The notes below the pieces were generated by a model, which worked only from the letters and a program-made list of their open reading frames with translations, did no database searches and was not told the origin of the DNA. Position numbers and translations under genes: made by a program. Of a DNA stretch of 64,000 bases, positions 10,467-52,189 are shown one piece after another; the first letter of the stretch is position 1, and each line of letters begins with the position of its first letter. The stretch comes from Dysidea avara. Lineage: Eukaryota > Porifera > Demospongiae > Dictyoceratida > Dysideidae. The DNA is taken from contig NC_089273.1 of NCBI RefSeq assembly GCF_963678975.1, forward strand, positions 10,230,614 to 10,294,613, read 5' to 3'.

Positions 10467-10547
10467 GTCAGTAGTATAGTGTACTGTACTATTGTTTAGC
10501 TCACATACAGTTCAGATTTATAATGCAGTATACTATCATTTTTACAG

Positions 10548-15844: not shown

Positions 15845-16033
15845 TTCCCTGTCCATCACTGACTGATCCTGTTAAGGGAATAATCACATGTTCACTGGGA
15901 GATGATGGAGTTCCTTCCTATGCAGACACTTGTAGTTTCACATGTAACACTGGCTATGAGCTAACTGGTAGTGATACTAGGACTTGTCTAAGTGATGGGA
16001 GCTGGAGTGGTGATGTGACAATGTGCAAAAAAG
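15845..16033 (+). CDS. Exon 5: sushi/CCP domain 1
   Basis: This is a 189-bp phase 1-1 exon (acceptor ending ACTATAG, donor AAAG|GTATGT). It encodes one complete complement-control-protein module of the six-cysteine type: VPCPSLTDPVKG at the start, DTCSFTCNTGYELTG in the middle and CLSDGSWSG near the end, with the invariant Trp of the module. Six-cysteine sushi domains are common in invertebrate adhesion and recognition proteins. The following exon (19709) encodes an almost identical module with the same length and phase, so the pair arose by recent exon duplication. Confidence 0.93.
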
Positions 16034-19708: not shown

Positions 19709-19897
19709 TTCCCTGTCCATCACTTACTGGTCCTAATAATGGAATAATCACTTGCTCACTGGGAGATGATGGAGTTCCTTCCTATGAAGATACTTGTAGT
19801 TTCACATGTAACACTGGTTATGAGCTAACTGGTAGTGACAATATGACCTGTCAAAGTGATGGGAGCTGGAGTGGTAATGTGACAATGTGTACAAGAG
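19709..19897 (+). CDS. Exon 6: sushi/CCP domain 2
   Basis: This 189-bp phase 1-1 exon (TTTCTACTAG acceptor, AGAG|GTGTGT donor) encodes VPCPSLTGPNNG, DTCSFTCNTGYELTG and CQSDGSWSG. It is a near copy of exon 5, with changes at only a minority of positions and six cysteines kept. It joins in frame to the giant EGF exon, giving MCTR followed by DDCDPNPC. The first EGF repeat therefore has TR in place of the NI that precedes every later repeat and lacks the first calcium ligand position. Confidence 0.93.
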
Positions 19898-22800: not shown

Positions 22801-23794
22801 TGCATATGATAATTACACAAGAGATGCATCAATTTATTATGAAACCCAGACATGAGCTTACAGGATTGTGCTGGTTCCTTAGTGGCTGATATGCTGCAAA
22901 AGCCACACAGAAAATGTTTGTCCAGCTATATGAGTCCATCCACCTGTGCACTATTGATTCTTGTAAAGCCAGGGCCAGAAACTGCCATTCGAACTTGCTA
23001 CACCACCAAAAAAGATGTCTGTTAAAAAAACCAGCCTAGAGTAGTCTGAGTAATGGTGAGGGTCAAAATCAATAGACTGGTAGTGTAGCTATCCACTGGT
23101 GGTGTTAGATTGATTTTGCCAGAAGTGCTGGATTTGTAAAATCCGATAACATTTGTAAACTGTTTTTGCTTGCATTTTGTGGCTTTATGGGAAATGTTAT
23201 GTGGTTAAAATTATCGGGAAAAATAGTTAAGTAGGTGCAGTATAAGGCTAGGAAAGGTGTGTATGGCTATAGAAAACTACTAAATACACATATAATCTTT
23301 CTGTACGTATGAAATTCATGAAAGTGGAGATCGCACCATGGAGGTGTGCACTGCTTAAACCTACCGAGTGCACACCACCCAGGGTGTTACCACACCAATC
23401 ATCACGTTACGAGATGACTCGAGGAGAATAGCAGTAATTAGAACTATCAAATGGCACAAAATTGTGAACCATTCACTATGCTCTACACTTGAGCTAGCTA
23501 CTGATCAAGGCAACCATACTTTTTGAAAGAACCGAGGGACATAATACAGTTTGTCCCTTTGTCCATTCCTCCATACCAAGTGAGCAAAAAAAAACTCCAA
23601 CCCAATAACCTGCTACAGCAGATGAGCTACTAACAAAGTGAATGGTCCTTATTAACCCTAAGCTATATAACTAACTGCGTTTATATAGCATTAATGTTTA
23701 CTTGTTCGATTGATTATGTAAAGTAGTATCAAAACTGTGTAGAATACGTAAAGTAAGTGTAAAATTATGTATCTCAATCATTTAACATGCACAG
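19898..23794. other. Intron 6
   Basis: Contains foldback half-arms (20037-21150), a partial dispersed repeat with its hairpin (21567-21830) and motif copies near 22215 and 22612. The rest, including 22640-23794, shows no gene or repeat I can name. The acceptor of the giant exon is at 23793-23794. Confidence 0.5.
20611..21150. repeat. Diverged tandem duplication carrying foldback half-arms
   Basis: The block from AACCAATACTGCC (20612) to about 20790 recurs from AACCAATACTGTC (20950) to about 21110. Each ends in the right arm of the AGCCAAGCTGT foldback family (CATTGCAGCC, then CATTTCTTGGC or TATTTCTTGGC). A lone left arm lies at 20037. Confidence 0.6.
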
Positions 23795-26700
23795 ATGATT
23801 GTGATCCTAATCCTTGTATGAATGGTGGCAATTGCACTGATGGAGTTGACTCTTTCACATGTAATTGTTCAAATGGATTTACTGGAGATACTTGTGAAAC
23901 TAACATAGATGATTGTGATCCTAATCCTTGTATGAACGGTGCTAATTGCACTGATGGAGTTGACTCTTTCACATGTAATTGTTCGAATGGATTTACTGGA
24001 GATACTTGTGAAACTAACATAGATGATTGTGATCCTAATCCTTGTATGAATGGTGGTAATTGCACTGATGAAGTTGACTCTTTCACATGTAATTGTTCAA
24101 ATGGATTTACTGGAGATACTTGTGAAACTAACATAGATGATTGTGATCCTAATCCTTGTATGAATGGTGGTAATTGCACTGATGAAGTTGACTCTTTCAC
24201 ATGTAATTGTTCAAATGGATTTACTGGAGATACTTGTGAAACTAACATAGATGATTGTGATCCTAATCCTTGTATGAATGGTGGTAATTGCACTGATGAA
24301 GTTGACTCTTTCACATGTAATTGTTCAAATGGATTTACTGGAGATACTTGTGAAACTAACATAGATGATTGTGATCCTAATCCTTGTATGAATGGTGGTA
24401 ATTGCACTGATGAAGTTGACTCTTTCACATGTAATTGTTCAAATGGATTTAATGGAGATACTTGTGAAACTAACATAGATGATTGTGATCCTAATCCTTG
24501 TATGAATGGTGGTAATTGCACTGATGAAGTTGACTCTTTCACATGTAATTGTTCAGATGGATTTACTGGAGATACTTGTGAAACTAACATAGATGAATGT
24601 GATACTAATCCTTGTTTTAATGGTGGTAATTGCACTGATGGAGTTAACTCTTTCACATGTAATTGTTCAAATGGATTTACTGGCAAAAGCTGTGAAATTA
24701 ACATAGACGATTGTGATCCTAATCCTTGTATGAATGGTGGTAAATGCACTGATGGAGTTGACTCTTCCAGATGTAATTGTTCAAATGGATTTACTGGAGA
24801 TACTTGTGAAATTAACATAGATGATTGTGATCCTAATCCTTGTATGAATGGTGGTAATTGCACAGATGGAGTTGACTCTTTCACATGTCATTGTTCAAAT
24901 GGATTTACTGGCAAAAGCTGTGAAATTAACATAGACGATTGTGATCCTAATCCTTGTTTTAATGGTGATAATTGCACTGATGGAGTTGAGTCTTTCATAT
25001 GTAATTGTTCAAATGGATTTACTGGAGATACTTGTGAAACTAACATAGATGAATGTGATCCTAATCCTTGTATGAATGGTGGTAATTGCACTGATGGAGT
25101 TGACTCTTTCACATGTAATTGTTCAAATGGATTTACTAGCAAAAGCTGTGAAATTAACATAGACGATTGTGATCCTAATCCTTGTTTTAATGGTGGTAAT
25201 TGCACTGATGGAGTTGAGTCTTTCATATGTAATTGTTCAAATGGATTTACTGGAGATACTTGTGAAACTAACATAGATGATTGTGATCCTAATCCTTGTT
25301 TTAATGGTGGTAATTGCACTGATGGAGTTGACTCTTTCAAATGTAATTGTTCAAATGGATTTACTGGAGATACTTGTGAAACTAACATAGATGATTGTGA
25401 TCCCACTCCTTGTATGAATGGTGGTAATTGCACTGATGAAGTTGACTCTTTCACATGTAATTGTTCAAATGGATTTACTGGAGATACTTGTGAAACTAAC
25501 ATAGATGATTGTGATCCTAATCCTTGTATGAATGGTGGTAATTGCACTGATGGAGTTGACTCTTTCACATGTAATTGTTCAAATGGATTTACTGGCAAAA
25601 GCTGTGAAATTAACATAGACGATTGTGATCCTAATCCTTGTTTTAATAGTGGAAAATGCACTGATGGAGTTAATTCTTTCACATGTAATTGTTCAAATGG
25701 ATTTACTGGCAAAAGCTGTGAAATTAACATAGACGATTGTGATCCTAATCCTTGTATGAATGGTGGTAATTGTACTGATGGAGTTGACTCTTTCACATGT
25801 AATTGTTCAAATGAATTTACTGGAGATACTTGTGAAACTAACATAGATGATTGTGATCCTAATCCTTGTATTAATGGTGGTAATTGCACTGATGGAGTTG
25901 ACTCTTTCACATGTAATTGTTCAAATGGATTTACTGGAGATATTTGTGAAACTAACATAGATGAATGTGATCCTAATCCTTGTTTTAATGGGGGTAATTG
26001 TACTGATGGAGTTGACTCTTTCACATGTAATTGCTCAAATGGATTTACTGGAGATATTTGTGAAACTAACATAGATGATTGTGATCCCAATCCTTGTATG
26101 AATGGTGGTAATTGCACAGATGGAGTTGACTCTTTCACATGTCATTGTTCAAATGGATTTACTGGCAAAAGCTGTGAAATTAACATAGACGATTGTGATC
26201 CTAATCCTTGTTTTAATGGTGATAATTGCACTGATGGAGTTGAGTCTTTCATATGTAATTGTTCAAATGGATTTACTGGAGATACTTGTGAAACTAACAT
26301 AGATGAATGTGATCCGAATCCTTGTTTTAATGGTGGTAATTGCACTGATGAAGTTGACTCTTTCACATGTAATTGTTCAAATGGATTTACTGGAGATATT
26401 TGTGAAACTAACATAGATGAATGTGATCCTAATCCTTGTTTTAATGGGGGTAATTGTACTGATGGAGTTGACTCTTTCACATGTAATTGCTCAAATGGAT
26501 TTACTGGAGATACTTGTGAAACTAACATAGATGATTGTGATCCCAATCCTTGTATGAATGGTGGTAATTGCACTGATGAAGTTGACTCTTTCACATGTAA
26601 TTGTTCAAATGGATTTACTGGAGATACTTGTGAAACTAACATAGATGAATGTTATCCTAATCCTTGTTTAAATGGGGGTAATTGTACTGATGGAGTTGAC

Positions 26701-29700
26701 TCTTTCACATGTAATTGTTCGAATGGATTTACTGGAGATACTTGTGAAACTAACATAGATGATTGTGATCCTAATCCTTGTATGAATGGTGGTAATTGCA
26801 CTGATGAAGTTGACTCTTTCACATGTAATTGTTCAAATGGATTTACTGGAGATACTTGTGAAACTAACATAGATGATTGTGATCCTAATCCTTGTTTTAA
26901 TGGTGGTAATTGCACTGATGAAGTTGACTCTTTCACATGTAATTGTTCAAATGGATTTACTGGAGATACTTGTGAAACTAACATAGATGATTGTGATCCC
27001 AATCCTTGTTTTAATGGGGGTAATTGTGCTGATAAAGTTGACTCTTTCACATGTAATTGTTCAAATGGATTTACTGGAGATACTTGTGAAACTAACATAG
27101 ATGAATGTTATCCTAATCCTTGTTTTAATGGGGGTAATTGTACTGATGGAGTTGACTCTTTCACATGTAATTGTTCGAATGGATTTACTGGAGATACTTG
27201 TGAAACTAACATAGATGATTGTGATCCTAATCCTTGTATGAATGGTGGTAATTGCACTGATGAAGTTGACTCTTTCACATGTAATTGTTCAAATGGATTT
27301 ACTGGAGATACTTGTGAAACTAACATAGATGATTGTGATCCCAATCCTTGTATGAATGGTGGTAATTGCACTGATGAAGTTGACTCTTTCACATGTAATT
27401 GTTCAAATGGATTTACTGGACATACTTGTGAAACTAACATAGATGAATGTTATCCTAATCCTTGTTTTAATGGGGGTAATTGTACTGATGGAGTTGACTC
27501 TTTCACATGTAATTGTTCGAATGGATTTACTGGAGATACTTGTGAAACTAACATAGATGATTGTGATCCTAATCCTTGTATGAATGGTGGTAATTGCACT
27601 GATGGAGTTGACTCTTTCACATGTAAGTGTTCAAATGGATTTACTGGAGATACTTGTGAAACTAACATAGATGAATGTGATCCGAATCCTTGTTTTAATG
27701 GTGGTAATTGCACTGATGAAGTTGACTCTTTCACATGTAATTGTTCAAATGGATTTACTGGAGATACTTGTGAAACTAACATAGATGAATGTGATCCTAA
27801 TCCTTGTTTTAACGGTGGTAATTGCACTGATGAAGTTGACTCTTTCACATGTAATTGTTCAAATGGATTTACTGGAGATACTTGTGAAACTAACATAGAT
27901 GATTGTGATCCTAATCCTTGTATTAATGGTGGTAATTGCACTGATGGAGTTGACTCTTTCACATGTAATTGTTCAAATGGATTTACTGGAGATATTTGTG
28001 AAACTAACATAGATGAATGTGATCCTAATCCTTGTTTTAATGGGAATAATTGTACTGATGGAGTTGACTCTTTCACATGTAATTGCTCAAATGGATTTAC
28101 TGGAGATACTTGTGAAACTAACATAGATGATTGTGATCCCAATCCTTGTATGAATGGTGGTAATTGCACTGATGAAGTTGACTCTTTCACATGTAATTGT
28201 TCAAATGGATTTACTGGAGATACTTGTGAAACTAACATAGATGAATGTTATCCTAATCCTTGTTTTAATGGGGGTAATTGTACTGATGGAGTTGACTCTT
28301 TCACATGTAATTGTTCGAATGGATTTACTGGAGATACTTGTGAAACTAACATAGATGATTGTGATCCTAATCCTTGTATGAATGGTGGTAATTGCACTGA
28401 TGAAGTTGACTCTTTCACATGTAATTGTTCAAATGGATTTACTGGAGATACTTGTGAAACTAACATAGATGATTGTGATCCCAATCCTTGTATGAATGGT
28501 GGTAATTGCACTGATGAAGTTGACTCTTTCACATGTAATTGTTCAAATGGATTTACTGGACATACTTGTGAAACTAACATAGATGAATGTTATCCTAATC
28601 CTTGTTTTAATGGGGGTAATTGTACTGATGGAGTTGACTCTTTCACATGTAATTGTTCGAATGGATTTACTGGAGATACTTGTGAAACTAACATAGATGA
28701 TTGTGATCCTAATCCTTGTATGAATGGTGGTAATTGCACTGATGGAGTTGACTCTTTCACATGTAAGTGTTCAAATGGATTTACTGGAGATACTTGTGAA
28801 ACTAACATAGATGAATGTGATCCGAATCCTTGTTTTAATGGTGGTAATTGCACTGATGAAGTTGACTCTTTCACATGTAATTGTTCAAATGGATTTACTG
28901 GAGATATTTGTGAAACTAACATAGATGAATGTTATCCTAATCCTTGTTTTAATGGGGGTAATTGTACTGATGGAGTTGATTCTTTCACATGTAATTGTTC
29001 GAATGGATTTACTGGAGATACTTGTGAAACTAACATAGATGATTGTGATCCAAATCCTTGTTTTAATGGTGGTAATTGCACTGATGGAGTTGACTCTTTC
29101 ACATGTAATTGTTCAAATGGATTTACTGGAGATACTTGTGAAACTAACATAGATGATTGTGATCCCAATCCTTGTATGAATGGTGGTAATTGCACTGATG
29201 AAGTTGACTCTTTCACATGTAATTGTTCAAATGGATTTACTGGAGATACTTGTGAAACTAACATAGATGAATGTGATCCTAATCCTTGTTTTAATGGTGG
29301 TAATTGCACTGATGAAGTTGACTCTTTCACATGTAATTGTTCAAATGGATTTACTGGAGATACTTGTGAAACTAACATAGATGATTGTGATCCCAATCCT
29401 TGTATGAATGGTGGTAATTGCACTGATGAAGTTGACTCTTTCACATGTAATTGTTCAAATGGATTTACTGGACATACTTGTGAAACTAACATAGATGAAT
29501 GTGATCCTAATCCTTGTTTTAATGGGGGTAATTGTACTGATGGAGTTGACTCTTTCACATGTAATTGTTCGAATGGATTTACTGGAGATACTTGTGAAAC
29601 TAACATAGATGATTGTGATCCTAATCCTTGTATGAATGGTGGTAATTGCACTGATGAAGTTGACTCTTCCACATGTAATTGTTCAAATGGATTTACTGGA

Positions 29701-32700
29701 GATACTTGTGAAACTAACATAGATGATTGTGATCCTAATCCTTGTTTTAATAGTGGAAAATGCACTGATGGAGTTAACTGTTTCACATGTAATTGTTCAA
29801 ATGGATTTACTGGCAAAATCTGCGAAATTAACATAGACGATTGTGATCCTAATCCTTGTATGAATGGTGGTAAATGCACTGATGGAGTTAACTCTTTCAC
29901 ATGTAATTGTTCAAATGGATTTACTGGAGATACTTGTGAAACTAACATAGATGATTGTGATCCCAATCCTTGTATGAATGGTGGTAATTGCACTGATGAA
30001 GTTGACTCTTTCACATGTAATTGTTCAAATGGATTTACTGGAGATACTTGTGAAACTAACATAGATGATTGTGATCCCAATCCTTGTATGAATGGTGGTA
30101 ATTGCACTGATGAAGTTGACTCTTTCACATGTAATTGTTCAAATGGATTTACTGGACATACTTGTGAAACTAACATAGATGAATGTTATCCTAATCCTTG
30201 TTTTAATGGGGGTAATTGTACTGATGGAGTTGACTCTTTCACATGTAATTGTTCGAATGGATTTACTGGAGATACTTGTGAAACTAACATAGATGATTGT
30301 GATCCAAATCCTTGTTTTAATGGTGGTAATTGCACTGATGGAGTTGACTCTTTCACATGTAATTGTTCAAATGGATTTACTGGAGATACTTGTGAAACTA
30401 ACATAGATGATTGTGATCCCAATCCTTGTATGAATGGTGGTAATTGCACTGATGAAGTTGACTCTTTCACATGTAATTGTTCAAATGGATTTACTGGAGA
30501 TACTTGTGAAACTAACATAGATGAATGTGATCCTAATCCTTGTTTTAATGGTGGTAATTGCACTGATGAAGTTGACTCTTTCACATGTAATTGTTCAAAT
30601 GGATTTACTGGAGATACTTGTGAAACTAACATAGATGATTGTGATCCCAATCCTTGTATGAATGGTGGTAATTGCACTGATGAAGTTGACTCTTTCACAT
30701 GTAATTGTTCAAATGGATTTACTGGACATACTTGTGAAACTAACATAGATGAATGTGATCCTAATCCTTGTTTTAATGGGGGTAATTGTACTGATGGAGT
30801 TGACTCTTTCACATGTAATTGTTCGAATGGATTTACTGGAGATACTTGTGAAACTAACATAGATGATTGTGATCCTAATCCTTGTATGAATGGTGGTAAT
30901 TGCACTGATGAAGTTGACTCTTCCACATGTAATTGTTCAAATGGATTTACTGGAGATACTTGTGAAACTAACATAGATGATTGTGATCCTAATCCTTGTT
31001 TTAATAGTGGAAAATGCACTGATGGAGTTAACTGTTTCACATGTAATTGTTCAAATGGATTTACTGGCAAAATCTGCGAAATTAACATAGACGATTGTGA
31101 TCCTAATCCTTGTATGAATGGTGGTAAATGCACTGATGGAGTTACCTCTTTCACATGTAATTGTTCAAATGGATTTACTGGAGATACTTGTGAAACTAAC
31201 ATAGATGATTGTGATCCCAATCCTTGTATGAATGGTGGTAATTGCACTGATGAAGTTGACTCTTTCACATGTAATTGTTCAAATGGATTTACTGGACATA
31301 CTTGTGAAACTAACATAGATGAATGTGATCCTAATCCTTGTTTTAATGGGGGTAATTGTACTGATGGAGTTGACTCTTTCACATGTAATTGTTCGAATGG
31401 ATTTACTGGAGATACTTGTGAAACTAACATAGATGATTGTGATCCTAATCCTTGTATGAATGGTGGTAATTGCACTGATGAAGTTGACTCTTCCACATGT
31501 AATTGTTCAAATGGATTTACTGGAGATACTTGTGAAACTAACATAGATGATTGTGATCCTAATCCTTGTTTTAATAGTGGAAAATGCACTGATGGAGTTA
31601 ACTCTTTCACATGTAATTGTTCAAATGGATTTACTGGCAAAATCTGCGAAATTAACATAGACGATTGTGATCCTAATCCTTGTATGAATGGTGGTAAATG
31701 CACTGATGGAGTTAACTCTTTCACATGTAATTGTTCAAATGGATTTACTGGAGATACTTGTGAAATTAACATAGATGATTGTGATCCTAATCCTTGTATG
31801 AATGGTGGTAATTGCACTGATGGAGCTGACTCTTTCACATGTCATTGTTCAAATGGATTTACTGGCAAAAGCTGTGAAATTAACATAGACGATTGTGATC
31901 CTAATCCTTGTTTTAATAGTGGAAAATGCACTGATGGAGTTAATTCTTTCACATGTAATTGTTCAAATGGATTTACTGGCAAAAGCTGTGAAATTAACAT
32001 AGACGATTGTGATCCTAATCCTTGTATGAATGGTGGTAATTGTACTGATGGAGTTGACTCTTTCACATGTAATTGTTCGAATGGATTTACTGGAGATACT
32101 TGTGAAACTAACATAGATGATTGTGATCCCAATCCTTGTATGAATGGTGGTAATTGCACTGATGAAGTTGACTCTTTCACATGTAATTGTTCAAATGGAT
32201 TTACTGGAGATACTTGTGAAACTAACATAGATGAATGTGATCCTAATTCTTGTTTTAATGGTGGTAATTGCACTGATGAAGTTGACTCTTTCACATGTAA
32301 TTGTTCAAATGGATTTACTGGAGATACTTGTGAAACTAACATAGATGATTGTGATCCTAATCCTTGTATTAATGGTGGTAATTGCACTGATGGAGTTGAC
32401 TCTTTCACATGTAATTGTTCAAATGGATTTACTGGAGATATTTGTGAAACTAACATAGATGAATGTGATCCTAATCCTTGTTTTAATGGGGGTAATTGTA
32501 CTGATGGAGTTGACTCTTTCACATGTAATTGTTCGAATGGATTTACTGGAGATACTTGTGAAACTAACATAGATGATTGTGATCCTAATCCTTGTATGAA
32601 TGGTGGTAATTGCACTGATGAAGTTGACTCTTTCACATGTAATTGTTCAAATGGATTTACGGGAGATACTTGTGAAACTAACATAGATGATTGTGATCCT

Positions 32701-35700
32701 AATCCTTGTTTTAATGGTGGTAATTGCACTGATGAAGTTGACTCTTTCACATGTAATTGTTCAAATGGATTTAATGGAGATACTTGTGAAACTAACATAG
32801 ATGATTGTGATCCCAATCCTTGTATGAATCGTGGTAATTGCACTGATGAAGTTGACTCTTTCACATGTAATTGTTCAAATGGATTTACTGGAGATACTTG
32901 TGAAACTAACATAGATGAATGTTATCCTAATCCTTGTTTTAATGGGGGTAATTGTACTGATGGAGTTGACTCTTTCACATGTAATTGTTCGAATGGATTT
33001 ACTGGAGATACTTGTGAAACTAACATAGATGATTGTGATCCAAATCCTTGTTTTAATGGTGGTAATTGCACTGATGGAGTTGACTCTTTCACATGTAATT
33101 GTTCAAATGGATTTACTGGAGATACTTGTGAAACTAACATAGATGATTGTGATCCCAATCCTTGTTTTAATGGGGGTAATTGTACTGATAAAGTTGACTC
33201 TTTCACATGTAATTGTTCAAATGGATTTACTGGAGATACTTGTGAAACTAACATAGATGAATGTGATCCTAATCCTTGTTTTAATGGTGGTAATTGCACT
33301 GATGAAGTTGACTCTTTCACATGTAATTGTTCAAATGGATTTACTGGAGATACTTGTGAAACTAACATAGATGAATGTGATCCTAATCCTTGTTTTAATG
33401 GTGGTAATTGCACTGATGAAGTTGACTCTTTCACATGTAATTGTTCAAATGGATTTACTGGAGATACTTGTGAAACTAACATAGATGATTGTGATCCCAA
33501 TCCTTGTATGAATGGTGGTAATTGCACTGATGAAGTTGACTCTTTCACATGTAATTGTTCAAATGGATTTACTGGAGATACTTGTGAAACTAACATAGAT
33601 GAATGTGATCCTAATCCTTGTTTTAATGGTGGTAATTGCACTGATGAAGTTGACTCTTTCACATGTAATTGTTCAAATGGATTTACTGGCAAAAGCTGTG
33701 AAGTTAACATAGACGATTGTGATCCTAATCCTTGTTTTAATAGTGGAAAATGCACTGATGGAGTTAACTCTTTCACATGTAATTGTTCAAATGGATTTAC
33801 TGGCAAAATCTGCGAAATTAACATAGACGATTGTGATCCTAATCCTTGTATGAATGGTGGTAAATGCACTGATGGAGTTAACTCTTTCACATGTAATTGT
33901 TCAAATGGATTTACTGGAGATACTTGTGAAATTAACATAGATGATTGTGATCCTAATCCTTGTATGAATGGTGGTAATTGCACTGATGGAGCTGACTCTT
34001 TCACATGTCATTGTTCAAATGGATTTACTGGCAAAAGCTGTGAAATTAACATAGACGATTGTAATCCTAATCCTTGTTTTAATAGTGGAAAATGCACTGA
34101 TGGAGTTAATTCTTTCACATGTAATTGTTCAAATGGATTTACTGGCAAAAGCTGTGAAATTAACATAGACGATTGTGATCCTAATCCTTGTATGAATGGT
34201 GGTAATTGTACTGATGGAGTTGACTCTTTCACATGTAATTGTTCGAATGGATTTACTGGAGATACTTGTGAAACTAACATAGATGATTGTGATCCCAATC
34301 CTTGTATGAATGGTGGTAATTGCACTGATGAAGTTGACTCTTTCACATGTAATTGTTCAAATGGATTTACTGGAGATACTTGTGAAACTAACATAGATGA
34401 ATGTGATCCTAATCCTTGTTTTAATGGTGGTAATTGCACTGATGAAGTTGACTCTTTCACATGTAATTGTTCAAATGGATTTACTGGAGATACTTGTGAA
34501 ACTAACATAGATGATTGTGATCCTAATCCTTGTATTAATGGTGGTAATTGCACTGATGGAGTTGACTCTTTCACATGTAATTGTTCAAATGGATTTACTG
34601 GAGATATTTGTGAAACTAACATAGATGAATGTGATCCTAATCCTTGTTTTAATGGGGGTAATTGTACTGATGGAGTTGACTCTTTCACATGTAATTGTTC
34701 GAATGGATTTACTGGAGATACTTGTGAAACTAACATAGATGATTGTGATCCTAATCCTTGTATGAATGGTGGTAATTGCACTGATGAAGTTGACTCTTTC
34801 ACATGTAATTGCTCAAATGGATTTACTGGAGATACTTGTGAAACTAACATAGATGATTGTGATCCCAATCCTTGTATGAATGGTGGTAATTGCACTGATG
34901 AAGTTGACTCTTTCACATGTAATTGTTCGAATGGATTTACTGGAGATACTTGTGAAACTAACATAGATGATTGTGATCCTAATCCTTGTTTTAATGGGGG
35001 TAATTGTACTGATGGAGTTGACTCTTTCACATGTAATTGCTCAAATGGATTTACTGGAGATACTTGTGAAACTAACATAGATGATTGTGATCCCAATCCT
35101 TGTATGAATGGTGGTAATTGCACTGATGAAGTTGACTCTTTCACATGTAATTGTTCAAATGGATTTACTGGAGATACTTGTGAAACTAACATAGATGAAT
35201 GTTATCCTAATCCTTGTTTAAATGGGGGTAATTGTACTGATGGAGTTGACTCTTTCACATGTAATTGTTCGAATGGATTTACTGGAGATACTTGTGAAAC
35301 TAACATAGATGATTGTGATCCTAATCCTTGTATGAATGGTGGTAATTGCACTGATGAAGTTGACTCTTTCACATGTAATTGTTCAAATGGATTTACTGGA
35401 GATACTTGTGAAACTAACATAGATGATTGTGATCCTAATCCTTGTTTTAATGGTGGTAATTGCACTGATGAAGTTGACTCTTTCACATGTAATTGTTCAA
35501 ATGGATTTACTGGAGATACTTGTGAAACTAACATAGATGATTGTGATCCCAATCCTTGTTTTAATGGGGGTAATTGTACTGATAAAGTTGACTCTTTCAC
35601 ATGTAATTGTTCAAATGGATTTACTGGAGATACTTGTGAAACTAACATAGATGAATGTTATCCTAATCCTTGTTTTAATGGGGGTAATTGTACTGATGGA

Positions 35701-38700
35701 GTTGACTCTTTCACATGTAATTGTTCGAATGGATTTACTGGAGATACTTGTGAAACTAACATAGATGATTGTGATCCTAATCCTTGTATGAATGGTGGTA
35801 ATTGCACTGATGAAGTTGACTCTTTCACATGTAATTGTTCAAATGGATTTACGGGAGATACTTGTGAAACTAACATAGATGATTGTGATCCTAATCCTTG
35901 TTTTAATGGTGGTAATTGCACTGATGAAGTTGACTCTTTCACATGTAATTGTTCGAATGGATTTACTGGAGATACTTGTGAAACTAACATAGATGATTGT
36001 GATCCAAATCCTTGTTTTAATGGTGGTAATTGCACTGATGGAGTTGACTCTTTCACATGTAATTGTTCGAATGGATTTACTGGAGATACTTGTGAAACTA
36101 ACATAGATGATTGTGATCCCAATCCTTGTATGAATGGTGGTAATTGCACTGATGAAGTTGACTCTTTCACATGTAATTGTTCAAATGGATTTACTGGAGA
36201 TACTTGTGAAACTAACATAGATGAATGTAATCCTAATCCTTGTTTTAATGGGGGTAATTGTACTGATGGAGTTGACTCTTTCACATGTAATTGTTCAAAT
36301 GGATTTACTGGACATACTTGTGAAACTAACATAGATGATTGTGATCCCAATCCTTGTATGAATGGTGGTAATTGCACTGATGAAGTTGACTCTTTCACAT
36401 GTAATTGTTCAAATGGATTTACTGGAGATACTTGTGAAACTAACATAGATGAATGTGATCCTAATCCTTGTTTTAATGGTGGTAATTGCACTAATGAAGT
36501 TGACTCTTTCACATGTAATTGTTCAAATGGATTTACTGGAGATACTTGTGAAACTAACATAGATGATTGTGATCCCAATCGTTGTATGAATGGTGGTAAT
36601 TGCACTGATGAAGTTGACTCTTTCACATGTAATTGTTCAAATGGATTTACTGGACATACTTGTGAAACTAACATAGATGAATGTGATCCTAATCCTTGTT
36701 TTAATGGGGGTAATTGTACTGATGGAGTTGACTCTTTCACATGTAATTGTTCGAATGGATTTACTGGAGATACTTGTGAAACTAACATAGATGATTGTGA
36801 TCCTAATCCTTGTATGAATGGTGGTAATTGCACTGATGGAGTTGACTCTTTCACATGTAATTGTTCAAATGAATTTACGGGCAAAAGCTGTGAAATTAAC
36901 ATAGACGATTGTGATCCTAATCCTTGTTTTAATAGTGGAAAATGCACTGATGGAGATAACTCTTTCACATGTAATTGTTCAAATGGATTTACTGGCAAAA
37001 GCTGTGAAATTAACATAGACGATTGTGATCATAATCCTTGTTTTAATAGTGGAAAATGCACTGATGGAGTTAACTCTTTCACATGTAATTGTTCAAATGG
37101 ATTTACTGGCAAAAGCTGTGAAATTAACATAGACGATTGTGATCCTAATCCTTGTTTTAATGGTGGTAATTGCACCGATGGAGTTGAGTCTTTCATATGT
37201 AATTGTTCAAATGGATTTACTGGAGATACTTGTGAAACTAACATAGATGATTGTGATCCAAATCCTTGTTTTAATGGTGGTAATTGCACTGATGGAGTTG
37301 ACTCTTTCACATGTAATTGTTCAAATGGATTTACTGGAGATACTTGTGAAACTAACATAGATGATTGTGATCCCACTCCTTGTATGAATGGTGATAATTG
37401 CACTGATGAAGTTGACTCTTTCACATGTAATTGTTCAAATGGATTTACTGGACATACTTGTGAAACTAACATAGATGAATGTGATCCTAATCCTTGTTTT
37501 AATGGTGGTAATTGCACTGATGGAGTTGACTCTTTCACATGTAATTGTTCAAATGGATTTACTGGAGATACTTGTGAAACTAACATAGATGATTGTGATC
37601 CTAATCCTTGTATGAATGGTGGTAATTGCACTGATGAAGTTGACTCTTCCAGATGTAATTGTTCAAATGGATTTACTGGAGATACTTGTGAAACTAACAT
37701 AGATGATTGTGATCCTAATCCTTGTATGAATGGTGGTAATTGCACTGATGGAGTTGACTCTTTCACATGTAATTGTTCAAATGGATTTACTGGCAAAAGC
37801 TGTGAAATTAACATAGACGATTGTGATCCTAATCCTTGTTTTAATAGTGGAAAATGCACTGATGGAGTTAACTCTTTCACATGTAATTGTTCAAGTGGAT
37901 TTACTGGCAAAAGCTGTGAAATTAACATAGACGATTGTGATCCTAATCCTTGTTTTAATAGTGGAAAATGCACTGATGGAGTTAACTCTTTCACATGTAA
38001 TTGTTCAAATGGATTTACTGGCAAAAGCTGTGAAATTAACATAGACGATTGTGATCCTAATCCTTGTATGAATGGTGGTAATTGTACTGATGGAGTTGAC
38101 TCTTTCACATGTAATTGTTCGAATGGATTTACTGGAGATACTTGTGAAACTAACATAGATGATTGTGATCCTAATCCTTGTATGAATGGTGGTAATTGCA
38201 CTGATGAAGTTGACTCTTTCACATGTAATTGTTCAAATGGATTTACTGGAGATACTTGTGAAACTAACATAGATGAATGTGATCCTAATCCTTGTTTTAA
38301 TGGTGGTAATTGCACTGATGAAGTTGACTCTTTCACATGTAATTGTTCAAATGGATTTACTGGCAAAAGCTGTGAAATTAACATAGACGATTGTGATCCT
38401 AATCCTTGTTTTAATAGTGGAAAATGCACTGATGGAGTTAACTCTTTCACATGTAATTGTTCAAATGGATTTACTGGAGATACTTGTGAAACTAACATAG
38501 ATGATTGTGATCCCAATCCTTGTATGAATGGTGGTAATTGCACTGATGAAGTTGACTCTTTCACATGTAATTGTTCAAATGGATTTACTGGAGATACTTG
38601 TGAAACTAACATAGATGAATGTAATCCTAATCCTTGTTTTAATGGGGGTAATTGTACTGATGGAGTTGACTCTTTCACATGTAATTGTTCAAATGGATTT

Positions 38701-41572
38701 ACTGGACATACTTGTGAAACTAACATAGATGATTGTGATCCCAATCCTTGTATGAATGGTGGTAATTGCACTGATGAAGTTGACTCTTTCACATGTAATT
38801 GTTCAAATGGATTTACTGGAGATACTTGTGAAACTAACATAGATGAATGTGATCCTAATCCTTGTTTTAATGGTGGTAATTGCACTAATGAAGTTGACTC
38901 TTTCACATGTAATTGTTCAAATGGATTTACTGGAGATACTTGTGAAACTAACATAGATGATTGTGATCCCAATCGTTGTATGAATGGTGGTAATTGCACT
39001 GATGAAGTTGACTCTTTCACATGTAATTGTTCAAATGGATTTACTGGACATACTTGTGAAACTAACATAGATGAATGTGATCCTAATCCTTGTTTTAATG
39101 GGGGTAATTGTACTGATGGAGTTGACTCTTTCACATGTAATTGTTCGAATGGATTTACTGGAGATACTTGTGAAACTAACATAGATGATTGTGATCCTAA
39201 TCCTTGTATGAATGGTGGTAATTGCACTGATGGAGTTGACTCTTTCACATGTAATTGTTCAAATGAATTTACGGGCAAAAGCTGTGAAATTAACATAGAC
39301 GATTGTGATCCTAATCCTTGTTTTAATAGTGGAAAATGCACTGATGGAGATAACTCTTTCACATGTAATTGTTCAAATGGATTTACTGGCAAAAGCTGTG
39401 AAATTAACATAGACGATTGTGATCATAATCCTTGTTTTAATAGTGGAAAATGCACTGATGGAGTTAACTCTTTCACATGTAATTGTTCAAATGGATTTAC
39501 TGGCAAAAGCTGTGAAATTAACATAGACGATTGTGATCCTAATCCTTGTTTTAATGGTGGTAATTGCACCGATGGAGTTGAGTCTTTCATATGTAATTGT
39601 TCAAATGGATTTACTGGAGATACTTGTGAAACTAACATAGATGATTGTGATCCAAATCCTTGTTTTAATGGTGGTAATTGCACTGATGGAGTTGACTCTT
39701 TCACATGTAATTGTTCAAATGGATTTACTGGAGATACTTGTGAAACTAACATAGATGATTGTGATCCCACTCCTTGTATGAATGGTGATAATTGCACTGA
39801 TGAAGTTGACTCTTTCACATGTAATTGTTCAAATGGATTTACTGGACATACTTGTGAAACTAACATAGATGAATGTGATCCTAATCCTTGTTTTAATGGT
39901 GGTAATTGCACTGATGGAGTTGACTCTTTCACATGTAATTGTTCAAATGGATTTACTGGAGATACTTGTGAAACTAACATAGATGATTGTGATCCTAATC
40001 CTTGTATGAATGGTGGTAATTGCACTGATGAAGTTGACTCTTCCAGATGTAATTGTTCAAATGGATTTACTGGAGATACTTGTGAAACTAACATAGATGA
40101 TTGTGATCCTAATCCTTGTATGAATGGTGGTAATTGCACTGATGGAGTTGACTCTTTCACATGTAATTGTTCAAATGGAATTACTGGCAAAAGCTGTGAA
40201 ATTAACATAGACGATTGTGATCCTAATCCTTGTTTTAATAGTGGAAAATGCACTGATGGAGTTAACTCTTTCACATGTAATTGTTCAAGTGGATTTACTG
40301 GCAAAAGCTGTGAAATTAACATAGACGATTGTGATCCTAATCCTTGTTTTAATAGTGGAAAATGCACTGATGGAGTTAACTCTTTCACATGTAATTGTTC
40401 AAATGGATTTACTGGCAAAAGCTGTGAAATTAACATAGACGATTGTGATCCTAATCCTTGTATGAATGGTGATAATTGTACTGATGGAGTTGACTCTTTC
40501 ACATGTAATTGTTCGAATGGATTTACTGGAGATACTTGTGAAACTAACATAGATGATTGTGATCCTAATCCTTGTATGAATGGTGGTAATTGCACTGATG
40601 AAGTTGACTCTTTCACATGTAATTGTTCAAATGGATTTACTGGAGATACTTGTGAAACTAACATAGATGAATGTGATCCTAATCCTTGTTTTAATGGTGG
40701 TAATTGCACTGATGAAGTTGACTCTTTCACATGTAATTGTTCAAATGGATTTACTGGCAAAAGCTGTGAAATTAACATAGACGATTGTGATCCTAATCCT
40801 TGTTTTAATAGTGGAAAATGCACTGATGGAGTTAACTCTTTCACATGTAATTGTTCAAATGGATTTACTGGCAAAATCTGTGAAATTAACATAGACGATT
40901 GTGATCCTAATCCTTGTATGAATGGTGGTAAATGCACTGATGGAGTTAACTCTTTCACATGTAATTGTTCGAATGGATTTACTGGAGATACTTGTGAAAC
41001 TAACATAGATGATTGTGATCCTAATCCTTGTTTTAATGGTGGTAATTGCACTGATGGAGTTGAGTCTTTCATATGTAATTGTTCAAATGGATTTACTGGA
41101 GATACTTGTGAAACTAACATAGATGATTGTGATCCAAATCCTTGTTATAATGGTGGTAATTGCACTGATGGAGTTGACTCTTTCACATGTAATTGTTCAA
41201 ATGGATTTACTGGAGATACTTGTGAAACTAACATAGATGATTGTGATCCTAATCCTTGTATGAATGGTGGTAATTGCACTGATGGAGTTGACTCTTTCAC
41301 ATGTAATTGTTCAAATGGGTTTACTGGAGATACTTGTAAAACTAACATAGACGATTGTAATTCTAATCCTTGTATAAATGGTGGTAATTGCACAGATGGA
41401 ATTGATTCATTCACATGTAATTGTTCAAATGGATTTACTGGAGATACTTGTGAAACTAACATAGATGATTGTTACCCTAATCCTTGTATGAATGGTGGTA
41501 ACTGCACTGATGGAGTTGATTCTTTTAGTTGCAGTTGCCATGTTCAATTTGGTGGGTCTAAATGTGAAGTGG
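23795..41572 (+). CDS. Exon 7: single 17.8-kb exon encoding 156 tandem calcium-binding EGF repeats
   Basis: The frame is open from 23767 to 41580; exon borders are set by ACAG|AT (23794/23795) and GTGG|GTAAGT (41572/41573), giving a symmetric phase 1-1 exon. From 23794 the protein is 155 repeats of exactly 38 residues plus a last one of 36, with no insertion or deletion. The typical unit is DDCDPNPCMNGGNC, TDGVDSFTCNC, SNGFTGDTCETNI. Each unit has six cysteines, the N-I-D-D/E-C calcium ligands and the C-x-D-x4-F-x-C-x-C signature of Asp/Asn beta-hydroxylation. Recurring variants are DEC for DDC, FN for MN, NSGK for NGGN, DEV or GVN for GVD, and GKSCEI for GDTCET. Most repeats carry two N-glycosylation sequons with Cys in the middle position (NCT, NCS). 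The O-fucose and O-glucose sites of Notch-type repeats are absent. Such arrays form stiff rods when calcium is bound. The last three repeats are the most divergent. Assembly collapse or expansion could alter the true count. Confidence 0.96.
28932..31440 (+). repeat. 1,254-bp (11-repeat) higher-order duplication in the EGF array
   Basis: Units at 28932-30176 recur at 30186-31430. The marker variant GVNCFTC, which has an extra cysteine, lies at 29779 and 31033, exactly 1,254 bp apart. Further order-preserving offsets exist: 1,140 bp (10 repeats; about 27.1 and 28.2 kb), 2,166 bp (19 repeats; about 31.7 and 33.9 kb) and 8,550 bp (75 repeats; 26.65 and 35.2 kb). Confidence 0.75.
36080..40870 (+). 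repeat. 2,394-bp tandem duplication (21 EGF repeats) within the array
   Basis: Rare variants recur exactly 2,394 bp apart: DECNPNPC at 36223 and 38617, then CTNEV, CDPNRC, SNEFTG, GDNSF, CDHNPC, CDPTPC and DSSRC in the same order. The copies part at about 36069/38463 on the left and 38476/40870 on the right. I saw two substitutions between them (Phe to Ile near 40176, Gly to Asp near 40470). 2,394 is 21 x 114. This is very recent unequal exchange, or an assembly duplication. Confidence 0.85.
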
Positions 41573-41585
41573 GTAAGTAATATTT

Positions 41586-42540: not shown

Positions 42541-42878
42541 TATCTAATCCAAAACAGCCAAGCTGTAAAAAAAGAGTGCGGCCCTCAAAAAGGCCAGGAT
42601 GAAAAAAGATGTGAAATCCAAGGTGGCGGCCAAGAAATGGCTGTGATGGTAGGTTATTGGCAAAAGTTTTAATTACAACAATTCAGGTGAATTTGCGTTG
42701 CTTCCTCCGCTAGGATTCGGCACCAAATTCACCTGAACTGTCGTAATTAAATTTTTTGCCATTAACCTACCATCACAGCCATTTCTTGGTCGCCACCTTG
42801 GATTTCACATCTTTTTTCATCCTGGCCTTTTTTAGGGCCACACTCTTTTTTTACAGCTTGACTGTTTTGGTTTAGATA
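42541..42878. mobile_element. Foldback element, AGCCAAGCTGT family
   Basis: Arms TATCTAATCCAAAACAGCCA (left) and its complement TTTTGGTTTAGATA (right) close a 338-bp hairpin. The stem includes CACCTGAA/TTCAGGTG near the apex. It is about 90 percent alike to 58261-58580 by eye. It lies in intron 7 upstream of the FN3 exon. Confidence 0.8.
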
Positions 42879-43076: not shown

Positions 43077-43379
43077 AATTTACACCACCAAAACAACCAA
43101 TTTTGAATAAAGTTTTGATATCGCCATACTCAGTAAACATCTCATGGGTAGTTGGCAATGTTTCTCTTCATCATTTCAATTATACAATTCAGTATGGCAC
43201 TGATGCATTGTTGCTCGATTCTAGTGTCATGGTGGAAACAAGTGGTGATATCAACAATGTTTTATCAGTAAACATTTCTGGTCTAACAGCATTTACCAAA
43301 TACTATTTTGTAATAGTGGCCAGTAATTCAATAGGGAGTACTACAACAACAGTGATGACTTTTAGTACAGATGAAACAG
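43077..43379 (+). CDS. Exon 8: fibronectin type III domain
   Basis: This is a 303-bp phase 1-1 exon (acceptor TATTTTTAG, donor CAG|GTATGT). The roughly 100 codons have the FN3 landmarks in order: P-x-x-P near the start (EFTPPKQP), the B-strand Trp in VNISWVVG, the C-strand YTIQYG, the L-x-A-F-T-K-Y-Y-F tyrosine-corner block, and SNSIGSTT before the end. It follows the EGF array after a 1.5-kb intron containing a long repeat and a foldback element. In surface receptors FN3 domains commonly lie next to the membrane, which fits the transmembrane exon proposed downstream. Confidence 0.92.
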
Positions 43380-45959: not shown

Positions 45960-46792
45960 CATTACAAGTCACACTGAAGAGAGTTCAGCTATAAACAAGT
46001 CATGCACCCTGTAGAGAGTTCAGCTACAAACAAATTACCCTTCCGAGAGATCAGCTGCAAACAAAACACTTTGTAGAGAGTTCAGCTACAAACAAATCAA
46101 CCTGTAGAGCGATCAGCAACAAACAAATCAACATGTAGAGAGATCAAACAAATCCCCCTGTAGAGACATCAGCTAGAAACTAGACACAATGTAAGGAGTT
46201 CAGCTACAAGCAAATCACCCTGTAGAGAGTTCAGCTAAAACAAATCATTGACAACCTGCAGGGAGATCAGCTACACACAAATCACCTTGTAGGGAGTTCA
46301 GCTACAAACAAATTACCCTGTGGAGAGATCAGCTACACACAAATCAACTTGTAGAGAGATCAGTTACAAATCACCCTGTAGAGAGATCAGCTAGAAACTA
46401 AACACAATGTATAAGGAGTTCAGCTACAAGCAAATCACCCTTTAGAGAGTTCAGCTACAAACAAATCAACCTGCAGAGAGATCAACTAGAAGGATCACCT
46501 TGTAGAGAGTTCAGTTACAAATCACCCTGCAGATAGTTCAGCTACAAACAAGTCATCCTGTAGAGAGATCAGCTAGAAGGATCACCTTGTAGAGAGTTCA
46601 GATATGAACAAATCACCTTGCAGATAGTTCAGACAAGTAACCCTGTAGAGAGATCAGATAGAAACAAATCACCCTGTGGAGTGTTCAACTACGAACAGAT
46701 AACCCTGCAAAGAGTTCAGCTAGAAAAAAAGTCACTCTGTAGAGAGAATCCTGTAGAGAGTTCATCTACAAGCAAATCACTCTGTAGAGACC
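45960..46792. repeat. Minisatellite, ~31-bp unit, about 25 copies
   Basis: Degenerate tandem units of the form CACCCTGTAGAGAGTTCAG then CTACAAACAAAT. It starts where dispersed repeat copy B ends. Single units or short runs of the same sequence follow the dispersed repeat at 42460-42540 and lie near 12930-13110, so the minisatellite may have grown from the end of that family. Confidence 0.85.
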
Positions 46793-48789: not shown

Positions 48790-51116
48790 TTATTTATTTA
48801 TTTATCGATTTATTATTACTTTATGGCAAGTATGCCAAGGGTCTGCAAGCAACTGGTGCTTGCAGCCTAAAACACAAGTTATACATACATTATAATTACT
48901 TTAACTAATCATAACTTAGCTATAGTGTTTGAAAGTTTGATGGTGGCGAGAGATCGTGACATTTGCTGCACGGACATAGATAATGGTAGGTACAGTGATT
49001 GTCATCGTCAAAATGAGTTACAAAATGATTCCACATAAATTTCTTTAGTTTAGCCTTGATGGTTGCAATTGATAAATTGGTATTGATTACAGGAAGAGCA
49101 TTCCACAAACGAGGAAGGCGATGGAAATAAGAGTTTCTATTTAAGTTATTACTATGGAGACGATGTTTGAGTTTATTATGTGTAGAGGATCTGGTGTGAC
49201 CCTGAGTAAATGTAATGTACCTATTAATGTCAAAGTTTCTTGTGGGTGACTTAAGTGACTTGATCGCAAACAAAACATCCTGAATCTCGAGGATATACAT
49301 GAATGGTAGAAGATGAAGTTCTAATAACCTGGATTTGTAGCTGATATTATAATTATTCAAGATGTGTTTGGTTGCTCGACGTTGAAAATGCTCAAACATA
49401 AGATGTCCTTGATTAAGTACGGTCACCATAACTGAGAGCAATAGGTAAGATGAGGACGAACTAAAGTAATATACAGATGTAGCTTGACTGATGGGTAGTG
49501 ATTGGAACAAAAAGTACGTCGTATCAGAGCCAACGATTTATATGCTTTAGATATTATAGAATTGTAGTGATTTGACCTCTTCAGGTCACTGGAGACAATC
49601 ACTCCCAGGTCTTTTTGAGTCTCCTGACAATTGATTTCTGTGCTGGAAATAAGGTATCTGGTATTGGACGTCGATTTTAAGGGAACATGTACACACTTGG
49701 TAAAGTTGATAGTTAGATTGGAAAGGAATGTTTGGTGAATAATAGAGTCAACATCTTGCTGGAGCTTGATGCGGTCCTCATCACACGAGATGGTCATAAA
49801 ACATTTCATGTCATCAGCAAACTTCAATACTTGACTAACTTCTATACTGGAAGAGATATTGTTCATATAAACTAGAAATAACAGGGGACCTAAAATACTT
49901 CCCTGGGGGACACCAGATATAACTGGTAGTACACTGTCAGATAAAGTATTGTTGATAGATACCTGCTGTACTCGGTCAGTGATGTAGCATTTAAACCACG
50001 ACCATAGGGTACCAGTAATGCCAAAAGACCAGAGGTGATTTAGTAGGATTCCATGTGAAACAGTGTCGAAGGCTTTACGTATATAGTATCAATTTACGTT
50101 GGGCTGTTGGTCAAGAAGTCAAAGAATGTTAAAAGCTGTTGTAAGGTGGAAGCTCCTTTTATAAAGCCAAACTGGCAGGGATTAATTTGAGTTACCAGAT
50201 GATTTACTATTTTATTATACACTTATCGCTCAAGTACCTTTGATGTGCTGGAAAGCAATGAGATGGGTCTGTAGTTCTTTACCGAAGTTTTATCACCAGC
50301 CTTGAAGATAGGTACAATCTTATGGATCTTCCAACTCGAGGGGATGTATGCATATTGGAGAGACATAGAAAAAAGATGGTGCAACGGCTGGCACAAAATT
50401 GGAGCACATGTCTGAAGAATTTTTGGAGAAATAAGGTCAATGCCTGGTGCTTTGGTAGGGTCCAAAGATACAAGGGCGTCATATACTTCTTCTATTGTGA
50501 TTGAAATAAAATCAATGTGATCAGTAGGCTCTAAACGGTTATCAACATTGGATAGATCAGATGAGTCTGAGAAAACTGAATGAAAGTAGCGATTGAACAT
50601 GTTAACAGAATCAGTGTCAGATTCGGCGATTTCGTTGTCAAACTGTAAAACAGAAGGAAAGTTCTTGGATTGGGTAAGGTTCCTGATATACTTGAAAATG
50701 TTGTTGTTGCGGTGAGATGCATACTCTCTGATGAGGCATGTCTCATAGTTAGTTTTACTGTTAGCAATTTCCTCTTGGAGTGACTCTTGAGATAATTTGA
50801 TCTTCTCTTCGAGATGTCTAGTAGGATGTTGCTTATACCTGCGGCGAAGAGTGCGCAGGCACTTGATGTGATGTCTAATATTGGCAGTGAGCCGGGAGGG
50901 TTGGTTATTACAGTGAATTTTGGTAAAAGGAATGAATAGTCTCATAGCATTGGATATAATCAGCTCTAATGTTTCCCAAATGAATTCAACATCGTGTGAC
51001 AGAAAACAGCTACTCAAGTTGTGATATGACAAATGTTCATAGAGTCCTTGGTAGTCTCCTTTATTTGTTGCTGAATGTATGCCTCGGAATGGACATGAAG
51101 GCGCTGAATGCGTCAC
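48790..51116 (-). mobile_element. Decayed non-LTR retrotransposon with reverse transcriptase
   Basis: Minus strand, 5'-truncated. The ORF at 51116-50223 covers the pre-RT linker and first RT motifs (LDPTKAPGIDLISPKIL, SSWKIHKIVPIFKAGD, NYRPISLLSSTSKVLE). After an in-frame stop at about 50221 and a deletion near 50090, a frame resumes with SGVPQGSILGPLLFLVYMNN and the catalytic FADD box (49821-49810), then DLGVIVSSDLK. A frameshift at 49510-49423 leads to the C-terminal part (HFQRRATKHILNNYN, LPRLWNALP). It ends in a (TAAA)n tail at about 48790-48805. Motifs place it among jockey/CR1-like elements. The several breaks make it non-functional. Confidence 0.88.
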
Positions 51117-51119
51117 ACT

Positions 51120-52189
51120 ATTCTCCCAGCGAATTGCCGAGTAAGTTCATGTATAAGTCATTGTAAACGGATATATAACTATATACCGTCATAATTTTAG
51201 ACAGGAATCCCCCACGCCATAGTAGCTTCCTGGGATTATATATCTATGCTTTTGTAGGCCAGATCCTTGAAGCTGGCTTGTTCTAGCAACTTTGTGGGTC
51301 AGACCGTGAACAAGTTGAGCTGAACCCTAGTGAGAAAACAGCTAAAAATGAAAGAAGATTTTTTCTCAACATTTCAACCAACCAGATGGAAGAGCAGACA
51401 AATGCTTCCATCAACAGTTCAGGAAAGGCTATAAGGCTATATACTTTTATGGCTTCCTCTAATGTATGGTGAAATCTTTGGCTATAAATAATGTGTCAGG
51501 CATTTGAATGATTAGCAAGTAAGTCAATACTACAAAACTAATAAGTTAATGATGTGATGATAATATGTGCAGATCTGAGACAACCATGGACCCTACTATA
51601 TAGTAACTGGGCAGATATATAGAGTTATGTATACTCTGATATAATTGTTGAGTGTTGCAGTTTGCCAATGGTCAAAGCTAAATTAACCATTTTAGATAGC
51701 TTTTTGTGTTGTTGAAGGTGTCAGGCAAACTCCAGTTAGGGCCAGGCAATAAAATATTATTTTTCAAAACAGGAGAGGAACATGCTTAGGCCCGCAAGGT
51801 ACAGGCTTAATCTATTTACCCCTGTAATGCATCTATTAATGTATTGCCCCACTACCCCTCCCTTCGGGAATATATGGGGCTATAGTGGGCACAACTGAAT
51901 GTTAAATGCCCCATGGTAGGGCAAACCTATTGTGTCAAATCCCCACCCATTGGTTCCAGTTGCAACGTGGGATTTACTCTGGATTTGACATAGCATAGAA
52001 AAAATACTTGGGTGCTTAATGAATGATTGTCCCCCATAGTGGGGCAGCAGTTTCATGTCAATTCCCCTTGTAAAGCCCCACTTACATCCAAGGGGGTGGT
52101 GGGGCAACATATTGGTAGGTGCATAATGAGTTTGCATCATAAACCTTGTGTTAAAATTTACATCACAGCCAGAATAAGCATTTGCTGTA
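51120..52189. other. Stretch between two retroelements
   Basis: No gene recognised. From 51840 to 52110 there are repeated GGGGC/GCCCC words (GCCCCACTACCCC, CATAGTGGGGCAGC), probably the untranslated 3' region of the minus-strand retroelement that ends near 52190. Confidence 0.4.

Follow-up and report, generated by a model that had tools for sequence, protein, structure and literature searches.

The sponge Dysidea avara carries, in the 64,000-nucleotide window of its genome analysed here (C2:10230614-10294613), an open stretch in which epidermal growth factor (EGF) units follow one another 156 times, and this locus raises the question of what protein such an array belongs to, how the array grew and what keeps its units alike. 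Judged from sequence, the array is probably one of the coding exons of an animal gene for an adhesion-type G-protein-coupled receptor (GPCR). As read from the DNA, the gene order is Sushi, Sushi, EGF x156, fibronectin type III (FN3), a repeat-filled stretch, FN3, Ig, HRM, HRM, GPS and a seven-helix domain; the gene would start in or before the window and end ~20 kb past its right edge, with most of the receptor exons outside the window.

The EGF array as an exon-like stretch

A preliminary description of the window had reported 156 EGF units, without indels and in one frame, and this was confirmed by repeat analysis, by frame and by tiling. Tandem Repeats Finder returned a tandem repeat at 23793-41525 with a period of 114 bp (155.6 copies, 93% matches, 0% indels), the stop-to-stop frame 23752-41580 on the plus strand is open over 5942 codons, and tiling started at 23794 gave 156 units of 38 residues in which all 155 internal periods are 114 bp. 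The six-cysteine EGF spacing is present in 156/156 units, and on this ground a chance or low-complexity repeat was rejected. The Pfam EGF model (PF00008) scored 133.7 bits across units 1-5, the five units that were submitted. The bounds given earlier, 23795 and 41572, also proved exact to the base, because the acceptor and donor consensus fit there: the acceptor AG/A lies at 23795 and the donor G/GTAAGT follows 41572, with phase 1 at both ends. Within the array, splice-like sites comprise two GTAAG donor-like sequences (27623 and 28763) and 18 AG preceded by pyrimidines. Taking assembly and splice consensus as the basis for both the single-exon status and the count, the array is one exon-like coding stretch of 156 EGF units.

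A four-unit AlphaFold model had a mean pLDDT of 68.8 and a pTM of 0.29, with the hairpins alone readable. The calcium-binding EGF consensus is [DN]x[DN][EQ]...[DN]xxxx[FY]; its strict form fits 41/155 units, and the form with Asp permitted at the fourth place fits 149/155. PF07645 scored 17.3 bits on the first five units, beneath its cut-off of 27.

Receptor exons downstream of the array

On the same strand beyond the window, Pfam matches were obtained to FN3 (7.1e-6), to Ig (8.3e-6, under cut-off), to HRM (PF02793; 1.3e-6, 29.1 bits, cut-off 26.2) and to a second HRM (1.5e-4, 22.5 bits, under cut-off). A GPS match (PF01825; E 7e-4, 20.5 bits, under the cut-off of 22.5), in a stretch that ends HLT-SF, precedes the first transmembrane (TM) exon. 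A broken receptor was considered because the list of open frames did not show TM1, and was dropped because three-frame reading shows TM1 open; by the same reading, the exons from TM1 to TM6/7 are all open with GT/AG edges, and TM6 contains LGLTWVFGLL. When the six TM exon translations were manually joined, they matched 7tm_2 (PF00002) at 2.4e-42 (145.3 bits, cut-off 20.6). This match strengthens the seven-helix identity and not the link between array and receptor.

The link itself is best argued from a paralogue at C2:6.07-6.10 Mb, 4.2 Mb from the window, in which the GPS and TM exons lie 22-24 kb 3' of the gene's own 1721-residue array frame on the same strand. Identity to the window gene is 83% in the GPS, 68% in TM1, 89% in TM2, 92% in TM3 and 82% in TM4; at base level, identity is 78-86% over the aligned GPS/TM pieces and 81.6% between the array consensuses, and the 7tm_2 match of the paralogue scores 54.3 bits. 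A second paralogue, at C4:26.86-26.89 Mb, brings such elements together within 27 kb, namely VWA (4.6e-37), Sushi, 87 EGF, GPS (5.3e-9, 36.9 bits) and 7tm_2 (36.5 bits), with 9 kb between array and GPS. A GPS exon lies no more than 41 kb 3' on the same strand in five of the seven arrays read (window, C4, C2:6.1, C2:8.0 and C4:27.8); three of these GPS come from a genome-wide list of 143 matches, and those of the window and C2:6.1 from reading the DNA. Counting listed GPS alone, 3/11 arrays have one on their strand inside this distance 3', for which a uniform-density bound gives 2.4e-5. The C2:6.1 paralogue is a stronger argument than this linkage count. Adhesion GPCRs as a whole have expanded in this genome, with at least 143 GPS and at least 153 7tm_2 exon-level matches, many of them on C1, C4, C5, C7 and C8, among the best 150 of 181 and best 150 of 528 candidates scored.

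Several observations weigh against assigning array and receptor to one gene. The 41-kb limit was set after the distance in the window was known, and the statistic is weakened for two of the three listed arrays because contig C4, where they lie, is GPS-rich (chance 0.176 per point; p 0.08 for two of three). The C5 and C7 arrays have no listed GPS within 41 kb downstream, and tblastn with seven-transmembrane (7TM) queries over 24 kb downstream of C5 found no match. The window gene is itself absent from the listed genome-wide GPS and 7tm_2 matches; absence from the GPS list is weak evidence, since that list misses the GPS of both the window and C2:6.1. The GPS match of the window gene is weak and by eye is without two canonical cysteines; tblastn with the tail of a Sycon ciliatum protein (described below) gave at this locus E values no better than 0.003, 0.18 and 0.33, the GAIN region being covered by one 36-column piece (E 0.18), and no GAIN model matched in the receptor stretches scanned. 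When the 10 kb with the seven-helix exons was translated unspliced, it yielded no 7tm_2 match. A stop codon interrupts the matches of both the second FN3 and the second HRM, a simple search detected no donor there, and these domains are either intron-split or damaged. Finally, the second FN3 lies 25 kb and the first HRM 29 kb beyond the first FN3 exon, the gaps being filled with repeats, and because of this interval two adjacent genes are possible.

Under that alternative, the array would belong to a secreted or matrix protein of EGF, Sushi and FN3 domains (fibropellin-, fibrillin- or dumpy-like) whose gene stops short of the receptor exons, and the GPCR would be a separate neighbour. The relatives at C5 and C2:34.27 Mb favour this reading in that their EGF arrays have at least five Sushi exons downstream and no 7TM was found in the stretch examined; many of the 120 matches listed in a protein search are likewise matrix-type or unnamed EGF proteins, and window 43.4-60.9 kb, after the first FN3 exon, holds no sense-strand Pfam match. 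We nevertheless consider it unlikely, as order and strand are repeated in the C2:6.1 Mb paralogue and in the C4 gene, and no ZP, hyalin or LNR match was found in the sense-strand stretches scanned, which covered nearly all of window 3801-60977 except most of the array, together with stretches downstream.

If array and receptor exons form one transcript, the product would rank with the largest EGF receptors in an animal. An EGF unit spans ~2.7 nm in Notch and fibrillin structures, and the predicted cell-surface receptor would thus bear an EGF rod of ~0.4 micrometre (156 x ~2.7 nm). Such a rod would keep the outer Sushi domains well away from the membrane and determine how far out they meet a ligand, and it may convey force or binding to the seven-helix domain; the receptor would probably be cut at the GPS. 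Adhesion GPCRs are frequently cleaved at the GPS and have a tethered agonist, as described in excerpts of PMC13062082 and PMC11697300, and an excerpt of PMC6208332 describes a sponge adhesion GPCR gene responsive to microbial patterns. By analogy, a role of the present receptor in microbe recognition is possible.

Growth, homogenisation and selection

The preliminary description had attributed the evenness of the array to strong selection or constant homogenisation, and the second of these was borne out. The array contains 79 distinct units among 156, with a mean pairwise identity of 92.7%, against 71-80% to the units of the six other arrays read. Moreover, runs of units, scored as consecutive units each at most 2 nucleotides apart, recur in order: 20 units at lag 21 (2 differences), 10 at lag 19, 10 at lag 11 and 8 at lag 75. 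The longest run in 200 shuffled unit orders was 7 for the window, and the same comparison gave an observed 15 against 4 in C4 and 7 against 3 in C5. Over all arrays, units resemble those of their own array at 0.84-0.97 and those of others at 0.65-0.80, with the exception of three small arrays that resemble one another at 0.92-0.93. First and last units are more diverged than the core in C4 and C5 (0/10,000 permutations and p 1e-4), and in the window this is a trend (p 0.06) due mostly to the last unit. Together, these patterns are the signature of unequal exchange and of duplication of blocks. A seventh, possibly unpaired, cysteine occurs in units 53 (29722) and 64 (30976), which lie 11 units apart, a lag at which duplicated blocks recur.

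The youngest block, of 21 units, has diverged by 0.16%, and its near-identity (4 mismatches in the 2447 bp from 36031 to 38477) makes it the likeliest spot for an assembler error, by 21 units. That the copy number was inflated or shrunk in assembly, leaving the true array off by one such block or more, is in our judgement improbable: frame and period are perfect across every block edge, six further block pairs differ by 6-39 mismatches across 720-1635 bp and are thus distinguishable by reads, and other long arrays are present in the same genome.

These other arrays form a graded set. Such EGF units occur in 11 or more open frames (5942 residues in the window, then 3344, 2825, 2597, 1721, 1096, 989, 506, 479, 228 and 224), a lower bound given by the best 150 of 1328 and best 150 of 1373 candidates scored in the 550.8-Mb, 108-contig assembly. 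Besides the 156 units of the window, we read 87 in C4, 73 in C5 after one different first EGF, 68 in C7 and 25 in C2:8.0; C2:6.1 has at least 26 and C4:27.8 at least 20, both minima as these arrays run past the stretch analysed, and the C4:27.8 frame terminates in a broken unit. In the 224-residue frame, a single phase 1-1 exon encodes four EGFs that hardly differ, and open stretches with two EGFs and one lie next to it. The antisense of the C4 array (C4:26867879-26877859) is also open, over 3327 codons, probably as a by-product of repeated codons.

Both the relative with the 224-residue frame, in its stretches of 1, 2 and 4 units, and the phase 1-1 edges of all four array exons whose edges were read lend support to the earlier suggestion that one phase 1-1 EGF exon expanded internally, and the four-EGF exon is perhaps the starting state of the arrays. 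We propose that such an exon would have expanded as unequal exchange or duplication of blocks recurred, each time by whole units of 114 bp, that this process would also keep the units alike, and that selection would purge frame breaks and cysteine loss.

For the selection test, every distinct site variant was counted once and the divergent last units were dropped, leaving 155 units of the window. Strong selection, as claimed earlier, held for cysteines and frame and not for the other window codons. Among 70 distinct variants, 20 are silent and 50 are replacements, a ratio of 0.77 that is not significant (p 0.32); a pairwise estimate is 0.50, from pairs that are non-independent. Cysteine replacements numbered 0 against 9.2 expected (p 5.5e-5). 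In the sister arrays C4 and C5 the ratios are 0.40 and 0.39 (p 2.8e-5 and 2e-5), and cysteine replacements are again 0 (p 5.8e-6 and 6.3e-6). Because cysteine is never replaced while the overall window ratio is not significant, frame and disulfides are guarded and the other codons loosely so. A decaying, satellite-like sequence without protein function, open merely through its youth, would also give a non-significant ratio, and the absence of stop codons among the window variants is by itself unsurprising (0 against 1.8 expected, P 0.16). This explanation is very improbable given the intact cysteines of three arrays, the significant silent excess in two of them, and the phase-1 edges shared by the array, Sushi and first FN3 exons.

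That the exact period is due to strict purifying selection alone was rejected on the non-significant window ratio and on the off-length periods of other arrays. Periods differing from 38 residues occur in C5 (1/72) and C7 (4/67), where such units have 37 or 39 residues, and in none of the remaining arrays (window 0/155, C4 0/86 as tiled, C2:6.1 0/25, C2:8.0 0/24, C4:27.8 0/19). Exact unit spacing is thus no general rule of these arrays. Because the off-length periods are held by the more diverged arrays, C5 and C7, the exact 114-bp period of the window fits recency combined with exchange in whole units.

Homogenisation has also acted on glycosylation motifs, fixing or removing a consensus across a whole array. 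With the consensus patterns for O-fucose, O-GlcNAc and beta-hydroxylation, each match being a predicted site, the window array has the EOGT-type O-GlcNAc consensus in 148/156 units, beta-hydroxylation in 150/156 and O-fucose in 0/156. Asn in place of the Ser/Thr of the O-fucose consensus creates an N-glycan sequon in 132/156 units, and N-x-S/T totals 281. Elsewhere the O-fucose consensus is found in 78/87 units of C4, 62/73 of C5, 61/63 of C7 and 25/25, 24/24 and 19/19 of the three small arrays. N-x-S/T numbers 2 in C4, 1 in C5 and 19 in 63 units of C7, and the small arrays have 48 in 25, 47 in 24 and 36 in 19 units (~2 per unit) alongside the O-fucose consensus. A simple swap of O-fucose for N-glycan, which C4 and C5 had suggested, was rejected since C7 and the small arrays combine sequons with the O-fucose consensus; the sole predicted motif change peculiar to the window array is that it has lost the O-fucose consensus.

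With between 4 and 156 units in its related arrays, this one genome offers a system for studying the evolution of domain number and the absence of introns, and for asking what effect the length of the arm has on an adhesion GPCR. A doubtful extension, speculative on the present evidence, is that these loci encode a mega-receptor family with adjustable arms, in which single-exon arrays would expand and contract in whole modules, length may vary between individuals, the arm would act as a mechanosensory tether or individual-specific adhesion ruler, and a whole array could switch its sugar code at once.

Known proteins and neighbouring features

EGF-7TM adhesion GPCRs such as ADGRE/CD97 and ADGRL4 resemble the gene proposed here in having EGF modules N-terminal to a class B-type 7TM domain, and have a GPS in between, where the window gene has a putative one; they usually have one EGF per exon, whereas the EGFs of the window share one exon-like stretch. 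Sponge adhesion GPCRs have N-termini with HRM, EGF, fn3 and Ig domains, and the window gene has in common with them the HRM, which is frequent in these receptors and not obligatory. The Sycon ciliatum protein 'fibrillin-2-like' (P0045, 4247 residues) likewise combines an EGF array with 7tm_2 in one predicted chain; it differs in having 39 EGFs by pattern, 22 of them consecutive, with a longest constant-period run of 7. This Sycon match, the HRM-bearing receptors and the layout of the gene all suggest a sponge origin. The nearest solved chains to the window units are Notch1 EGFs (9b3n, 1.3e-63). Notch has 36 divergent EGFs; it shares the 38-residue period and the beta-hydroxylation consensus with the window array and differs in the O-fucose consensus, and membership was rejected as no LNR or ankyrin match was found in the scanned sense-strand stretches. 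CD97 has 3 to 5 EGF domains according to an excerpt of PMC8191316, compared with 156 here. Among Amphimedon adhesion GPCRs, HRM occurs in at least 8 and GPS in 28/40 (excerpt of PMC4302439). Drosophila dumpy is, like the predicted product here, a giant EGF protein; its more than 300 EGFs are mostly interspersed with DPY modules, it has 78 coding exons and a ZP domain, and its region of concerted evolution is a 102-residue PIGSFEAST repeat and not EGF (excerpts of PMC2930355). Dumpy membership was rejected, the units here being without spacers and the scanned sense-strand stretches without a ZP match.

In protein searches the best phmmer match listed was Acanthaster planci LOC110981781 (P0001), which has 79 EGFs by pattern and fn3 domains and is grouped with other echinoderm EGF+fn3 proteins as a relative; it differs in its 46% identity, in constant-period runs of at most 7 and in having no 7tm_2 among the listed domains. 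A 12-unit query gave none above 65% identity among the best 120 of 1558 matches (7968 candidates scored, lengths ~250-800), and a search of long proteins (3.3-10.4 thousand residues) none above 63% among the best 120 of 689, lengths of 800-3260 and above 10.4 thousand residues falling outside both. Among those 120 long proteins the maximum was 86 EGFs by pattern, with at most 45 consecutive, and neither set of 120 relatives listed contained a comparable array. The window array is thus the longest uninterrupted EGF run found here among the matches listed, and the longest of the genome's arrays read. EGF-7TM receptors, HRM-bearing sponge adhesion GPCRs (PMC4302439) and concerted evolution in dumpy (PMC2930355) are already known, as far as the excerpts go; neither a receptor of this kind with 156 units in a single-exon array nor several such arrays within one genome was found reported in the searches made of open-licence PMC papers.

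Features of the window are collected in the table. The two stretches of the Sushi frame matched PF00084 at E 2.6e-15. The first FN3 exon scored E 0.0052 with fn3 (17.4 bits, cut-off 25) and E 2.2e-4 with PF16656 (22.2 bits, cut-off 30). The reverse-transcriptase remnant, located in the long stretch beyond that exon, is the sole minus-strand match in window 43.4-63.4 kb.

Features located in the window (coordinates count from its first nucleotide)
Feature	Position	Strand	Description
EGF array exon	23795..41572	+	156 units of 38 residues, 17778 bp, phase 1-1
Last EGF unit of the array	41464..41572	+	34 differences from the array consensus; terminates at the donor
Youngest block duplication in the array	36031..40871	+	36031-38477 recurs at +2394 bp (21 units), 4 mismatches/2447
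Sushi (CCP) exon 1	15845..16033	+	PF00084; edges AG/TT and G/GTATGT by eye, phase 1-1
Sushi (CCP) exon 2	19709..19897	+	PF00084; edges by eye, phase 1-1
Fibronectin type III-like exon, 3' of the array	43077..43379	+	Phase 1-1 edges; Pfam matches under cut-offs
Reverse-transcriptase remnant	49672..51146	-	RVT_1 E 3e-16; open frame 50226-51146; belongs to a mobile element, not to the receptor

A lone EGF-like stretch at 10475-10777, 5' of the Sushi exons, is perhaps another exon; its Pfam scores are all under cut-offs (EGF 16.5 bits, EGF_Teneurin 20.0). A reverse-transcriptase-like piece at 13719-14384 on the plus strand, within the receptor locus, resembles frames at the C2:34.28 and C4 loci. 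A palindromic inverted repeat, mobile-element-like by eye, lies 3' of the array at 42550-42870, with related pieces close to the loci at C4 and C2:34.28 Mb. About 4.4 kb 3' of the array, a 31-bp minisatellite (45964-46746) shows ~9% indels, in contrast to the array, and translated stretches related to it occur at C2:34284748-34284962 and C2:10191073-10193436. Near the left end of the window, 595-946 is a 175-bp tandem duplication with 98% matches and no indels.

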